Positions 20,597 through 25,871 of a DNA stretch of 37,257 nt are shown piece after piece. Every line of letters begins with the position of its first letter. Position 1 is the first letter of the stretch. Made by a program: the position numbers and the translations under genes. Origin of the DNA: Hyphomicrobiales bacterium (GTDB taxonomy: Bacteria > Pseudomonadota > Alphaproteobacteria > Rhizobiales > Beijerinckiaceae); contig JAPLOW010000072.1 in assembly GCA_026400555.1 (NCBI GenBank), forward strand, positions 1 through 37,257, read 5' to 3'. The notes beneath the pieces are model-generated. The model did no database searches and was not told the origin of the DNA. It saw nothing but the letters and a program-made list of their open reading frames with translations.

Positions 20597-21847
20597 GTGC
20601 CGAACGGAAAATCCATCCTCCTGATCGTCGGCGGCGGCATCGCCGCCTACAAGGCGCTTGAACTGGTGCGGCTTGCGCGCCGCAAGGGCATTGCCGTGAC
20701 GCCGATCCTGACCAAGGCCGGCGCAGAGTTCGTCACCCCGCTCTCATTGGCCGGGCTGGCGGGCGCGAAGGTCTATGACGATCTGTTTTCCCTGACCGAC
20801 GAGGTCGAAATGGGGCATATCGCCTTGTCGCGCTCGGCGGATCTTGTGGTCGTGGTCCCGGCGACGGCTGATCTGATCGCGAAGATGGCGAATGGCATCG
20901 CCAATGATATGGCCAGCGTGACGCTTCTTGCGACGGACAAGGACATCGTGATCGCGCCGGCGATGAATGTGCGCATGTGGCACCATCCCGCGACCCAGCG
21001 CAATCTCGAGACCTTGCGGCGCGACGGCGTCACGATCGTCGGGCCCGCGACAGGCGCCATGGCCTGCGGCGAGTTCGGTCCCGGCCGTTTGGTCGAGCCG
21101 CCGGAGCTGCTGGCCGCCATCGAGGCCAAGCTGATTTCCTGCGTTCCGAAACCGATGCCGGGTCAGGCGCTGGCGGGCAAGCACGTGCTCGTCACGTCGG
21201 GCCCAACCCACGAGCCGATCGATCCGGTGCGCTACATCGCCAACCGCTCCTCGGGCAAGCAGGGCCACGCCATCGCTGCTGCGGCGGCTGCAGCCGGCGC
21301 CAGGGTGACCCTGATATCCGGGCCGACAAGTCTTGCCGACCCTGCAGGCGTCACGACCGTGCACGTCACGACCGCGCGCCAGATGCTGGCCGCCACCGAG
21401 GCAGCCTTGCCAGCGGACATCGCGATCTTCGCTGCGGCAGTGGCGGATTGGCGGGTGGCGAACGCGGCGGACGAGAAGCTCAAGAAGACCGCCGGGTCGG
21501 GTTCGGGCGCGCCCGCGCTGGCCCTGACCGAGAACCCCGACATCCTTGCGACGGTTGCGCACCTCAAGGCTGGCCGTCCGGCCTGCGTGGTTGGCTTCGC
21601 AGCCGAAACCGAGCACGTGATCGCCAATGCGACAGCCAAGTTCAGGCGCAAGGGTTGTGACCTGCTCGTCGCCAACGATGTCAGCCTGACCGGCTCGGGC
21701 ATCGCCGGCGGCGTGTTCGGCGGTGACGCCAATGCCGTGCATCTGGTCAGCGCGTCGGGCGTGGTGTCATGGCCCGTCATGGGCAAGGACGAGGTGGCGG
21801 CGAAGCTGATCGCGCATCTCGCGGCGCTGGACAGCGGCTGGGCCTGA
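20597..21847 (+). CDS. coaBC: Bifunctional phosphopantothenoylcysteine decarboxylase / ligase
   Basis: CoaBC makes 4'-phosphopantetheine for coenzyme A in two steps: ligation of cysteine to phosphopantothenate using CTP, then FMN-dependent decarboxylation. The N-terminal CoaC flavoprotein domain shows [26 protein letters not shown], the PAMN clamp in [13 protein letters not shown], and the active-site Cys loop [10 protein letters not shown]. The C-terminal CoaB domain shows [30 protein letters not shown] and AAAVADWR. The length is 416 residues from a GTG at 20597. Its TGA overlaps the dut ATG (TGATG at 21845-21849), so the two are translationally coupled. Confidence 0.96.
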
Positions 21848-22308
21848 TGCCGCGGCTCGCAGTCCGCGTGATGATCCTTCCGCATGCCGAGAGCCTGGCC
21901 TTGCCGTCCTATGCCAGCGCAGGCGCCGCAGGTCTTGATCTGGTCGCGGCTATCCCCGACGGCGACGCATTTACGCTCGGACCCGGTGAAAGGGGCCTTG
22001 TCCCGACCGGGTTTGTGCTCCAAATACCTAAAGGATTTGAAGCGCAGGTGCGGCCGCGCTCCGGGTTGGCTCTCAAGCATGGTGTCACCGTGCTGAACAG
22101 TCCGGGGACGATCGACGCCGATTATCGTGGGGAGATCAGGGTCATCCTGATCAATCTCGGCCAGGAGCCATTCACGCTCCGCCGGGGTGACAGGATCGCC
22201 CAGCTCGTCGTGGCGCAGGTCACGCGCGTGGTACTGCACAAGGCCGATAGCCTTGAACAGACCGAACGCGGGACCGGCGGTTTTGGCTCGACCGGCGTCA
22301 ACTCCTGA
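21847..22308 (+). CDS. dut: Deoxyuridine triphosphatase
   Basis: Dut is a homotrimeric dUTPase that keeps uracil out of DNA and supplies dUMP. All five motifs are present in order: [43 protein letters not shown], and the flexible C-terminal arm [10 protein letters not shown]. The length is 153 residues. The ATG at 21847 overlaps the coaBC stop; a later GTG/ATG pair near 21868 would remove conserved sequence. coaBC-dut coupling is widespread in bacteria. Confidence 0.97.
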
Positions 22309-22359: not shown

Positions 22360-22812
22360 ATGATCTTGTTGTCCCGCCGGAGCCTTCTGTCGATCGCGGC
22401 CGTTGTTGATATCGCGCTGCACGCGCGTCCCCAGCCCGTTTCCGCGAAAATGCTTGCGGCGCGGCATGATCTGCCGCCGCGGCACCTTGAGACGGTCCTG
22501 CAGGCGCTGGTGCGGCACGGAATCCTGAAGGGGGTGCGCGGGCCGCGCGGCGGCTACGAGGTCGCCAGGGAGCGCCGCCGCATCACGGCCGGAGACATCG
22601 TGCGCGCAGCGATGTCGGTGACCGGTGAGGACGACCTGCCGCCGCTGCCGCACTCGCGCCTTGTCGACGAGATCGTCGGGCCGGAGGTCAAGGCCGCCGG
22701 CGAGGCCTTCCTCGCGCGGCTTGATGGCATTTCGGTCGAGGATCTGTGCAAGCATGCCGAAACACGAAAGGTGTTCGGCGCGGACCTGACCATGGCAGAT
22801 TTCACAATATAA
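22360..22812 (+). CDS. Rrf2-family transcription regulator, CymR-like, with CysE-like Ile tail
   Basis: The 150-residue product begins [20 protein letters not shown] and has the Rrf2 winged helix: [19 protein letters not shown], then the wing [18 protein letters not shown]. The three-cysteine Fe-S cluster of IscR/NsrR is absent; one Cys occurs in DLCKHAE. It therefore resembles the cysteine regulator CymR more than iron-sulfur sensors. cysK follows after 83 bases on the same strand. The protein ends ADFTI with a terminal Ile, like the C-terminal tails by which serine acetyltransferases insert into the CysK active site. I infer that it controls cysK and may dock with CysK. The ATG at 22360 is chosen with GAAAGG upstream; a TTG at 22342 would add six residues. 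Confidence 0.85.
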
Positions 22813-22851
22813 TTTGTAAAATTATTTATTTATCGACCTGTATTGTGAAAT
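22799..22851. promoter_or_regulatory. Candidate Rrf2/CymR operator and cysK promoter island
   Basis: An AT-rich island in otherwise high-GC DNA holds three related half-sites: ATTTCACAA (22799-22807), TTGTAAAAT (22814-22822) and TTGTGAAAT (22843-22851). The first two form a dyad with one mismatch around a 6-base spacer. The first and third are perfect inverted copies of 11 bases (ATTTCACAATA / TATTGTGAAAT). The left arm encodes the last residues of the Rrf2 protein. The site lies 45-97 bases before the cysK ATG. I infer regulator binding; the protein that binds is not proven by sequence. Confidence 0.6.
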
Positions 22852-22895
22852 ATGGCATTGATCCTCATCCCCTTGTTCTGGATGAGGACAACACC

Positions 22896-23882
22896 ATGAC
22901 ACAAGCTGCCAGAAAGACCGACACCGCCGCGACTCGGAGCCCGGGGCGCGGGCGCATTTATGACTCGATCACCGACACGATCGGCGACACGCCCATTGTC
23001 CGCCTGAGGCGGATCGGGCTTGAGCGTGGCGTCAGGGCCAACCTGCTCGCCAAGCTTGAATTCTTCAATCCGATCGCCAGCGTCAAGGACCGGATCGGCG
23101 TCAACATGATCGATGCTCTGGAGGCGTCCGGCAAGCTGAAGCCCGGCGGCACCCTGATCGAGCCGACCTCCGGGAACACCGGCATTGCGCTGGCTTTCGT
23201 GGCGGCCGCCCGCGGCTATCGCATGATCCTTGTGATGCCGGAGACCATGTCGCTGGAACGCCGCAAGATGCTCGCCCTTCTGGGCGCCGAACTCGTGCTC
23301 ACGCCAGGCCCGCAGGGCATGCGCGGCGCGGTCGCCAAGGCCAATGAACTGCTCGCCGAGATTCCCGCTTCGATCATGCCGCAGCAGTTCCAGAATCCGA
23401 ACAATCCCGACATCCACCGCCGCACGACAGCGGAGGAAATCTGGAACGACACCCATGGCGCCATCGACTATTTCGTCTCGGGCGTCGGCACGGGCGGCAC
23501 CATCACCGGCGTCGGGCAGGTCCTCAAGGCGCGGAAGCCCTCTGTGAAGATTGTCGCCGTGGAGCCGGAGGATTCTTCCGTGTTGTCGGGCGGGGCGCCC
23601 GGCCCGCACAAGATCCAGGGCATCGGGGCCGGTTTCATTCCCGATGTCCTCGACCGCAGCGTGATCGACGAGGTGGTCACCGTCGGCAACCAGACAGCTT
23701 TCGACACGGCCCGCGCCCTGGCCAGGCTCGAGGGAGTTCCCGGCGGCATCTCCTCGGGCGCAGCTGTGGCCGCAGCCCTTGAACTGGGCAGCAGGCCCGG
23801 CATGGCGGGCAAGAACATCGTGATCATCATACCGTCCTTTGCAGAACGCTACATCTCGAGCGCTTTGTTCGACGGGCTGTGA
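22896..23882 (+). CDS. cysK: Cysteine synthase A (O-acetylserine sulfhydrylase)
   Basis: CysK makes cysteine from O-acetylserine and sulfide with PLP. The Schiff-base lysine is K64 in [11 protein letters not shown]. The substrate loop is [13 protein letters not shown], and the PLP-phosphate loop is [13 protein letters not shown]. The length of 328 residues is slightly long because of about 20 N-terminal residues before [17 protein letters not shown]. The gene lies directly downstream of the Rrf2 regulator with a dyad-rich promoter between, so it is probably under that regulator's control. A second, different cysteine synthase lies at 24790-25782 on the other strand. Confidence 0.96.
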
Positions 23883-23998
23883 TCGACGCGACGGCGAAAA
23901 AGTCCTGAAAAGGCGGCGACAGCGACGACGCGATCGTTGCCTTTTCGGGTGCGGTGAACAATGTCTGGCGGATATCCTTCCCAACCCCCGGATGTTGC

Positions 23999-24793
23999 AT
24001 GACTGCGCTGCTGACCTCGATCGTCAACCACCCCAGAACCGAACGCATTGTGATGATCCTGATCATCATCAATGCCATCACGCTTGGACTCGAAACCTCC
24101 AAGTCGGTCATGGCCGATTACGGTCCGGTGCTGATGTTGCTGGACAAGGTCATTCTTGGCGTCTTTGTCGCCGAACTGCTCGCGCGGATCATCGTCAAGC
24201 GGGCTGCCTTCTTCCGTGATCCATGGAGCCTGTTCGATCTGTTCGTGGTGGGCATCGCCCTGGTGCCGACCAGCGAATCGCTCTCCGTCCTGCGGGCACT
24301 GAGGGTGCTGCGCGCCTTGCGCCTGATCACGGTCGTACCTTCGCTGCGCAAGGTCGTCGCCGGCCTGATCGGTGCGATGCCGGGCATGGGGTCGATCGGC
24401 CTGCTGCTCCTGCTCGTCTATTACGTCTTCGCCGTGATGGGCACCAAGCTCTTCGGCGAGACAAACCCCGAACTGTTCGGCTCGATCGGCACGACCGCCT
24501 ACACCCTGTTCCAGGCGATGACGTTCGATGACTGGTCCAACGGCATCGTCAAACCGCTCTACGAGAAAGGTCACAGCTGGGGCTGGGTCTTCGTCATCCT
24601 GTTCATGGTGCTGTCGGCCTTCATGGTCCTCAACCTGTTCATCGGCGTCGTCGTGACGGCGCTTGACGAGGTCACCGCCAGCGAAGCGCCGAAGCTGACC
24701 CATCCGGCTCACAGCAACGAGGACGTCGTCGCCGAACTCAAGGCCATGCGTGCTGAGATCGCCGTGCTGCGCGGCGAGATGGCGAGACGCTAG
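23999..24793 (+). CDS. Bacterial voltage-gated cation channel (NavBac family) with DDW filter
   Basis: This single-domain six-helix channel is expected to form a homotetramer in the inner membrane. S1 starts near residue 17. S4 carries Arg at residues 99, 102, 105 and 108 in the every-third pattern (VLRALRVLRALRLI). The pore helix and filter read LFQAMTFDDWSNG, with filter residues 175-181 TFDDWSN. S6 ends VLNLFIGVVVTALDEV, and a C-terminal heptad helix (EDVVAELKAMRAEIAVLRGE) should form the tetrameric coiled coil. NavAb and NaChBac have Leu-Glu-Ser-Trp filters, so this one is unusual and may pass calcium. The ATG at 23999 gives 264 residues; a GTG at 23954 would add 15. Its TAG overlaps the convergent cysteine synthase stop. 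Confidence 0.93.
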   Translation: MTALLTSIVNHPRTERIVMILIIINAITLGLETSKSVMADYGPVLMLLDKVILGVFVAELLARIIVKRAAFFRDPWSLFDLFVVGIALVPTSESLSVLRALRVLRALRLITVVPSLRKVVAGLIGAMPGMGSIGLLLLLVYYVFAVMGTKLFGETNPELFGSIGTTAYTLFQAMTFDDWSNGIVKPLYEKGHSWGWVFVILFMVLSAFMVLNLFIGVVVTALDEVTASEAPKLTHPAHSNEDVVAELKAMRAEIAVLRGEMARR

Positions 24794-25782
24794 GCGGGCG
24801 CTGCCAGCACCGCGCCCAGCATCCGTTCGTCGACGCCGCCTGCGCGCTGCAGCCACGCCGGCGCCGGCAGGCCCTTGCCGCGCAGGAAGGTGGGGTCGAA
24901 CAGCTTGGACTGATAGCGGGTGCCGTAGTCGCAAAGGATCGTCACGATCGTCTTGCCCGGCCCCAGATCATGCTCCAGCAGATCGAAGCAGACCGGCAGC
25001 GCCTCCTCGTCCGGGATCTGGAACGAGACGTCTGGCCTGAAGCCTTCCAGATTGGCGGTAATGCGCCCCTGACCGATGCCTTCGGTGATTGACGAGCCCT
25101 CGGCCTTCAAGGTTCCGGTCGTGTAGAAGGCATGCAGGGCCGCCCCCATCGGGTCAGCAAGGCCGATGGTCATGCCGGGCTTCGCGGCACGCAGGGCCTT
25201 GGCCACGCCGGCCAGCGTGCCGCCCGTGCCAACCGCGCAGATGAAGCCATCGATCTCGCCATCCGTCTGCGCAAGGATTTCAGGACCCGTGGTGGCGGCA
25301 TGGCCCTCGCGGTTGGCCGTGTTGTCGAACTGGTTGGCCCAGACCACGCCTTCGGGAGTGACGGCGGCAAGCGCCTCGGCAAGACGGCCCGACACTTTCA
25401 CATAGTTGTTCGGATTCGAGAAAGGCGCAGGCGGCACCTCGATCAGCTCCGCGCCTGCCAGCCGGATCATATCCTTCTTCTCCTGGCTCTGGCTGTTCGG
25501 GATCACGATCACTGTGCGGTAGCCGAGCGCGTTGCCGACAAGGGCAAGGCCGATGCCGGTGTTGCCCGCCGTGCCCTCGACGATCACGCCGCCGGGCCTG
25601 AGCGCGCCACGCGCCTCCGCGTCACGGATGATCGCGAGGGCGGCGCGGTCCTTGACCGACTGGCCGGGGTTCATGAACTCGGCCTTGCCCAGGATGCGGC
25701 ACCCGGTCAGCGCGGACGCCTGACGCAGGGCGATCAGCGGGGTGTTGCCGATCGCCTCGATGATGCCATTGCGGATGGTCAT
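24790..25782 (-). CDS. Second cysteine synthase (CysK-type, OASS family)
   Basis: A PLP-dependent beta-family enzyme of 330 residues beginning MTIRNGIIEAIGNTPL. K44 in NPGQSVKDRAALA is the PLP lysine. The substrate loop is EGTAGNTGIGLAL and the phosphate loop VGTGGTLAGVAK. It differs clearly from the cysK product at 22896 (EGTAGNTG instead of EPTSGNTG), so the two are old paralogues, not a recent duplication. O-acetylserine sulfhydrylase activity is likely; a role with other sulfur or selenium donors or in cystathionine metabolism is possible. It converges with the channel gene, sharing a CTAG at the stops, and diverges from the RNA methyltransferase gene. Confidence 0.92.
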   Translation of the reverse strand: MTIRNGIIEAIGNTPLIALRQASALTGCRILGKAEFMNPGQSVKDRAALAIIRDAEARGALRPGGVIVEGTAGNTGIGLALVGNALGYRTVIVIPNSQSQEKKDMIRLAGAELIEVPPAPFSNPNNYVKVSGRLAEALAAVTPEGVVWANQFDNTANREGHAATTGPEILAQTDGEIDGFICAVGTGGTLAGVAKALRAAKPGMTIGLADPMGAALHAFYTTGTLKAEGSSITEGIGQGRITANLEGFRPDVSFQIPDEEALPVCFDLLEHDLGPGKTIVTILCDYGTRYQSKLFDPTFLRGKGLPAPAWLQRAGGVDERMLGAVLAAPA

Positions 25783-25871
25783 GATCCATGCCTCTTGCTG
25801 TTTGCCGGGAGTGCTGAACCTGATAGGCCAAGCGCGGGGGCGCGTCACCCTCATCCAACGAAGGTGAGCCC

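Follow-up and report, generated by a model that had tools for sequence, protein, structure and literature searches.

In Bacillus subtilis, four papers describe the cysteine synthase CysK as acting with the Rrf2 protein CymR as a co-repressor (PMC4961446, PMC12895370, PMC9239247, PMC11487621), and one of them presents an AlphaFold-Multimer model of CymR2-CysK2 in which the CymR C-terminus is anchored in CysK; a published proposal of tail docking thus exists for B. subtilis CymR (PMC11487621). CysE also carries a C-terminal Ile tail for the CysK active site. According to a review, the terminal Ile accounts for some 80% of the energy of the interaction in Haemophilus influenzae, DFSI is the native CysE tetrapeptide of Mycobacterium tuberculosis and was crystallised with CysK1 (2Q3C), and CysK favours pentapeptides whose third residue is hydrophobic and whose fourth is acidic (PMC9547175). 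The unrelated proteins CdiA-CT and EGL-9 are described, in another paper, as binding CysK or its homologue CYSL-1 through a C-terminal Ile (PMC5562914). Judged from its listings, the open-access literature that we searched describes no cysK-linked Rrf2 protein with such a tail from Proteobacteria and yielded little on cysteine or O-acetylserine sensing in Alphaproteobacteria.

The window, by which we mean the whole 37,257-nucleotide stretch of DNA analysed here, holds a candidate for such a system (Table 1). An earlier note on this DNA had proposed that a cluster-less Rrf2 regulator with a CysE-like tail lies 83 bases before cysK and that CysK serves as its co-repressor by reading O-acetylserine. 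The descriptive part of that proposal is borne out: the translated regulator ends in MADFTI, its stop codon ends at 22812 and the cysK ATG stands at 22896, and its only Cys is at position 130. The regulator belongs to the Rrf2 family by its Pfam score, which exceeds the cut-off of 30 bits, and by its fold; it scores 71 bits against TIGR00738 (cut-off 73.3) and falls below the equivalog cut-offs of CymR (NF047409; 50.9 against 195 bits), IscR (48.2 against 207.55), RirA (31.6 against 193) and NsrR (25.9 against 182). An AlphaFold2 model of the protein (mean pLDDT 83.2) matches RsrR, IscR, CymR and NsrR by Foldseek, with E values near 1e-8 to IscR and CymR, and renders residues 136-150 as coil, with pLDDT below 50 at 144-149. 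It is the one Rrf2 match in its own genome (3.79 Mb, 85% complete).

Table 1. Features of the regulator-cysK locus, in positions of the window
Feature	Position	Strand	Basis
dut, upstream neighbour	21769-22308	+	dUTPase, 110.2 bits
Rrf2 regulator, cluster-less, 150 aa	22360-22812	+	Pfam PF02082, 79 bits
Variable, predicted flexible linker, about residues 136-146	22765-22797	+	entropy and model coil
Codons of the C-terminal tail D147-F148-T149-I150	22798-22809	+	conservation of Ile and aromatic-x-Ile
Operator-like near-palindrome TTTCACAATATAATTTGTAAAA, 22 bases	22800-22821	.	spans tail codons and stop
TCGACC, at the place of the conserved -35-like TCGACA of relatives	22833-22838	+	column profile, 65 loci
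Second half-site ATTGTGAAA, within the presumed -35/-10 spacer	22842-22850	+	conserved half-site
cysK, cysteine synthase A, 328 aa	22896-23882	+	TIGR01139, 441.8 bits

The downstream gene is a cysteine synthase by its TIGR01139 score (cut-off 350.95 bits), by the presence of the TSGNT, QF, GVGT and GIGA motifs, which a review names as those of the CysK active site (PMC9547175), and by its best PDB match, M. tuberculosis CysK1 (2q3b/2q3c/2q3d, E 1.9e-117). Of the 155 CysK reads from linked loci that exceed 300 residues, 145 show QF, 148 GVGTGG and 142 GIGAGF, the remainder being either cut reads or true variants; TSGNT served to select the CysK frames, and its presence in 172 of 172 hence carries no evidential weight. 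The gene order dut-rrf2 is conserved: 90 of 96 cysK-linked loci (L090, whose upstream sequence is missing, being left out of the count) and 41 of 55 further loci have a dUTPase motif upstream, which anchors the orthology of the locus. L032, the nearest named relative of the genome that holds the window, stands at 97% identity.

Some features of the neighbourhood stand beside this main line. Directly 3' of cysK lies an Ion transport protein, a single-domain cation channel (23954-24793, plus strand; PF00520, 150.6 bits), and on the opposite strand, some 0.9 kb away from cysK, a second cysteine-synthase-like PLP enzyme (24790-25812, minus strand; NF007989, 484 bits); an opposite-strand CysK-like match, 37% identical, also occurs in the close relatives L032, L036 and L098. 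Within the regulator, Cys130 (22747-22749) sits in an E-[DE]-L-C motif ahead of the linker and is kept in 67 of the 96 unique order-level proteins (counted from the C-terminus, ungapped). A Cys of Staphylococcus aureus CymR is reported as a redox site (PMC13256707), and by comparison Cys130 could be such a site.

Within the order Hyphomicrobiales, a protein search matched 69 of 297 genomes at E 1e-8 or better and 43 at 4.5e-29 or better, and a contig scan gave 77 loci; the loci of the 43 best genomes and those of the scan were read, L108 being excluded for want of an Rrf2 match. cysK follows directly downstream in 106 loci, which encode 97 unique proteins, and all of these end in Ile except that of L106. 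The tails of the other 96 read DFTI (72), DFAI (13), DFSI (5), DYTI (2), DYSI (2), NFTI (1) and HFTI (1), with an entropy of 0 at -1, 0.93 at -2, 0.25 at -3 and 0.17 at -4, against 3.1-3.6 bits at each of positions -5 to -10. Because a conserved tail behind a hypervariable stretch is the mark of a docking motif on a variable tether, we read these columns as such a motif, and the coil predicted at residues 136-150 agrees with that reading.

A profile built from 20 orthologues (alignment A3) carried the comparison to the class, where 238 of 385 genomes matched at E 1e-15 and at least 150 of the 385 matched strongly (each of the matches listed reaching E 3.8e-42 or better), and to the phylum, where 252 of 349 genomes matched, many of them with IscR-like proteins. 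We read 47 phylum loci and 68 class loci, the latter comprising 28 that came up as best matches and 40 picked by place, 20 of these 40 mainly because the alignment ended before the tail. A downstream cysK on the same strand accompanies 58 of the class loci, and every one of the 58 regulators ends in Ile (that of L216 with N at -3); six of the ten class loci without a downstream cysK do so. Pooling gave 242 loci, 218 of them unique by their last 90 residues, of which 172 are cysK-linked in the sense that cysK lies on the same strand within 800 nt downstream. Terminal Ile occurs in 171 and aromatic-x-Ile in 170 of these 172, as against terminal Ile in none of 12 three-Cys, cluster-bearing Rrf2 proteins, and we therefore conclude that a terminal Ile next to cysK is not chance. 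Among cluster-less relatives with no cysK detected, 15 of 34 unique proteins carry the aromatic-x-Ile tail (Fisher p = 1e-15 against the 170 of 172, uncorrected for shared ancestry), so that cysK linkage is not strictly needed for it; for three of the 15 (L256, L262, L268) no more than 0.8-1.5 kb of downstream sequence was read, and in their group cysK usually comes after one intervening gene.

In a non-alphaproteobacterial class of the phylum, sequence reading gives the gene order rrf2, ThiF/MoeB-like gene, cysK (L252, L263, L289), with the tails TYSI, TYTI, TYAI and NFSI. L289 reads as having a second ThiF/MoeB-like gene 3' of cysK, and these genes around cysK hint at a sulfur-carrier route to cysteine. 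Other surroundings also occur: in L271 a regulator with the tail SFSI is followed, again on sequence reading, by peroxiredoxin-like and sulfite/nitrite-reductase-like genes instead of cysK, and in L274-L276 Rrf2 proteins with the tails NFSI, DFCI and DFSI lie beside a methyltransferase-like gene, cysK being absent within 2.2 kb downstream.

Natural losses of the tail provide controls. In a genus whose name, Phreatobacter, we take from L099, L101-L103 and L105, the dUTPase motif lies just upstream of rrf2 in all 12 unique loci; there is no downstream cysK, and none of the 12 proteins ends in Ile, the tails being LLEPA, FETA, YETA, LALA, LAVA and VLAD. cysK was found elsewhere in each of the ten genomes of the genus that were searched, and within about 1.5 kb on each side of that gene no relative of this Rrf2 was found. 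As the rows of this genus form one group with L106 in the tree (99/80), they represent one tail loss and not twelve. L106 itself lacks the tail yet has cysK 272 nt downstream, which suggests that the tail may disappear before the linkage does. In family f118, three loci without cysK end in HATI, HAAI and RVVA. Orthologues without a terminal Ile, which the earlier note had named as evidence against its proposal, therefore do exist, mostly where the linkage to cysK has been lost, with L106 as the linked exception.

The tails also fit the docking partner in part. F or Y stands at -3, position three of the pentapeptide, in 170 of 172 tails, in line with the hydrophobic preference of CysK, and the MtbCysE tail, DFSI, recurs among them; -2, position four, is mostly T, S or A, and here most tails depart from the acidic preference. 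CysE tails vary widely in the order and regulator tails beside cysK do not. CysE of the genome that holds the window (G000:C19:7684-8166, L129) ends in MDQLLAELG, without a terminal Ile, and the CysE ends in 21 genomes with a tailed regulator (20 and this one) are Ile in seven, Leu in ten and neither in four; Ile ends CysE in three of 18 comparison genomes without a strong Rrf2 match (G152 having a weak one, 4.9e-9) and in neither of two Phreatobacter-genus genomes. A CysE ending in Ile or Leu (17 of the 21) may compete for the same CysK site. The idea that the CysE tail was lost as a consequence of the regulator occupying its place on CysK we dropped as a general claim, there being no clear exchange across genomes.

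At the DNA level, the near-palindrome across the stop codon matches TTTCACAATNNNNATTGTGAAA with two mismatches and is the sole site with up to three mismatches in its own genome (3.79 Mb, 85% complete). This single site before cysK speaks for a local rrf2-cysK loop; other sites, if weaker or located in the part of the genome that is missing, could perhaps have escaped the search. In many of the order loci the tail codons supply one half of such a palindrome, which runs over the stop and has TTTCACAAT-N4-ATTGTGAAA as its best form. A column profile could be anchored on TCGAC or TCGCC, at similar spacing, in 65 of 96 order loci; the half-site is conserved in these 65 relatives, a second half-site, TGTGAATT, occupies +11 to +18 counted from the first base of TCGACA, and a TA lies near +23. 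Conservation alone marks TCGACC/TCGACA as a presumptive promoter element: the -10 of the window is weak, and a generic promoter scan returned two sites with other hexamers, neither at the conserved TCGACA position. A search of the rrf2-cysK gap for a terminator found none.

We hypothesize that the regulator is a repressor at cysK whose tail docks in CysK and is displaced by O-acetylserine, a full model to which we give a probability of roughly 0.7. An Rrf2 dimer would bind the near-palindrome and the half-site before cysK and limit cysK transcription; we infer this binding from the placement of the sites. The flexible tail (DFTI in this regulator and [D/N/T]-[F/Y]-x-Ile in most cases) would enter the CysK active site as the CysE tail does, an interaction that the conservation makes likely, and CysK would thereby become the sensor, so that CysK itself probably signals the need for cysteine to the regulator. 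When O-acetylserine is scarce and the cell is supplied with sulfur or cysteine, free CysK would hold the tail and shift the regulator towards one of its states, by the CymR precedent most likely repression. Accumulating O-acetylserine would occupy the active site, whereupon the tail would leave and cysK would be expressed. Comparative sequence shows the tail as conserved protein, its linkage to cysK, the flexible linker and operator-like sites around the cysK promoter; co-repression by CysK and competition by O-acetylserine are drawn from analogy with CymR.

The alternative that the terminal residues merely mirror an operator half-site had been raised as a caution in the earlier note, and within the order part of it stands. 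The palindrome runs over the tail codons; the Asp at -4 is encoded by GAT in 87 of 94 cases, against GAC 451 and GAT 276 for Asp elsewhere in the same ORFs; and ACA and ATA are in excess at the tail over the rest of the ORFs. From this codon use we take part of the tail conservation within the order to be DNA constraint. The GAT bias lasts, at 43 GAT to 6 GAC, in the 49 loci with a weak right half-site (at most 4 of 6), all of which keep the motif, as compared with 44 to 1 in the 47 loci with a good one (5 or 6). Because the bias is similar and 4-of-6 sites are more frequent here (30 of 96 loci) than within the cysK coding region (16%), a degraded or weak operator site probably survives in many of the 49, and the motif in all 49 is therefore only modest evidence. 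Across the class, by contrast, the bias is absent (GAC 26, GAT 23 in the 58 loci with cysK) and the residues are retained. In L112, L113, L114, L116, L117 and L118, where cysK begins about 24-42 nt after the stop, no operator was seen and the tail is kept; the residues are also found encoded by codons such as AGC, TCG and TAT. The Ile is thus conserved also where the DNA site would have to lie elsewhere, which the earlier note had proposed to check, and we rejected DNA as the only cause of the tail on half-site scoring, codon use and the loci without operator room; this account is now very improbable. The note's central claim, of a CysE-like tail as the link to CysK, gains from selection at the protein level, from the tie to cysK and from the sequence of a crystallised ligand, and must cede part of the order-level conservation to DNA.

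Given a protein motif, what it docks to and with what effect can still be read otherwise. The tail might dock while CysK sequesters the regulator as an anti-repressor, or while the regulator inhibits the CysK enzyme. The evidence from the tail is identical, since conservation cannot give the sign of the effect of CysK on the regulator, and a gap of 20 nt or less between rrf2 and cysK in 39 of the 172 unique linked loci is operon-like and would suit a stoichiometric complex of any sign; a half-site between the presumed -35 and -10 in the order suits repression, however, and the CymR precedent uses CysK as co-repressor, so that we regard these variants as unlikely, at something like one chance in six. 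Still less probable is a tail that serves as a degradation signal, makes an intramolecular contact or addresses another PLP enzyme, such as the one encoded opposite cysK at 24790-25812. Cluster-less relatives that keep the tail with no cysK nearby, as in L274-L276, speak for it; it has to be set against a tail pattern that includes a crystallised CysK ligand, the loss or decay of the tail in some lineages where cysK is not linked, and the disorder of the tail in the model. An ordinary iron-sulfur regulator of the IscR, RirA or NsrR type with a coincidental Ile end would share the fold, but the missing three-Cys motif, the lack of any Ile end among the three-Cys proteins and scores far under the respective cut-offs leave this reading next to no probability. 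We accordingly retain the docking repressor that senses O-acetylserine through CysK as the best explanation of the locus.

If this holds, the role of CysK as a trigger enzyme would be a general one, in which it signals O-acetylserine to gene regulators by way of a single C-terminal code, an aromatic-x-Ile common to the cysK-linked family, CymR and some CysE proteins that tends to decay once cysK moves away. Control by CysK as a trigger enzyme would then extend well beyond the Firmicutes, the final residues of unnamed 'Rrf2 family regulators' could serve to propose them as regulators of cysteine metabolism, and the mechanism could be tested by the removal of a single residue.

The comparison with known systems places the family beside, and not within, CymR. 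Both share the Rrf2 fold and a tail in which the terminal Ile follows an aromatic residue at -3; the ends of three CymR-type PDB chains illustrate this (S. aureus 3t8r, YMFYI; Listeria innocua 3lwf, YMFYI; Thermincola potens 4cic, YMYYI). They differ in that the CymR tail is of the MFYI type and that of the window family of the DFTI type, and in that the gene of the window family adjoins cysK, with an operator-like site in its own genome at the cysK locus only. In an unrooted tree of 74 rows and 156 columns, four CymR-type and 12 three-Cys rows split at 100/100 from the 58 others, so that CymR groups with IscR apart from the cysK-linked family; this placement and the score of 50.9 against 195 bits rule out membership in CymR. 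IscR, RsrR and NsrR resemble the regulator in fold by Foldseek, and RirA by profile, whereas the three-Cys cluster motif of IscR, RirA, NsrR and RsrR is lacking in the window regulator and in all 172 cysK-linked relatives. With CysE the likeness lies in the C-terminal Ile tail for the CysK active site, DFSI of MtbCysE being identical to some regulator tails; in contrast to CysE, the tail is here carried by a DNA-binding protein, in a genome whose own CysE has no Ile tail. EGL-9 with CYSL-1 and CdiA-CT with CysK differ in that the Ile-ended partner is a prolyl hydroxylase in the one case and a secreted protein in the other, neither of them a transcription factor. From the tree split and the score below the CymR model, we think that the cysK-linked family probably works like CymR-CysK without being CymR, in a separate proteobacterial lineage. 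On balance we favour a second Rrf2 lineage with a CysK-docking tail, present in Alphaproteobacteria and in at least one further class of Pseudomonadota, whose tail was gained independently of CymR or is ancestral and was lost in IscR, two histories between which an unrooted tree does not decide; in either case there would be two Rrf2 lineages sharing one docking code.
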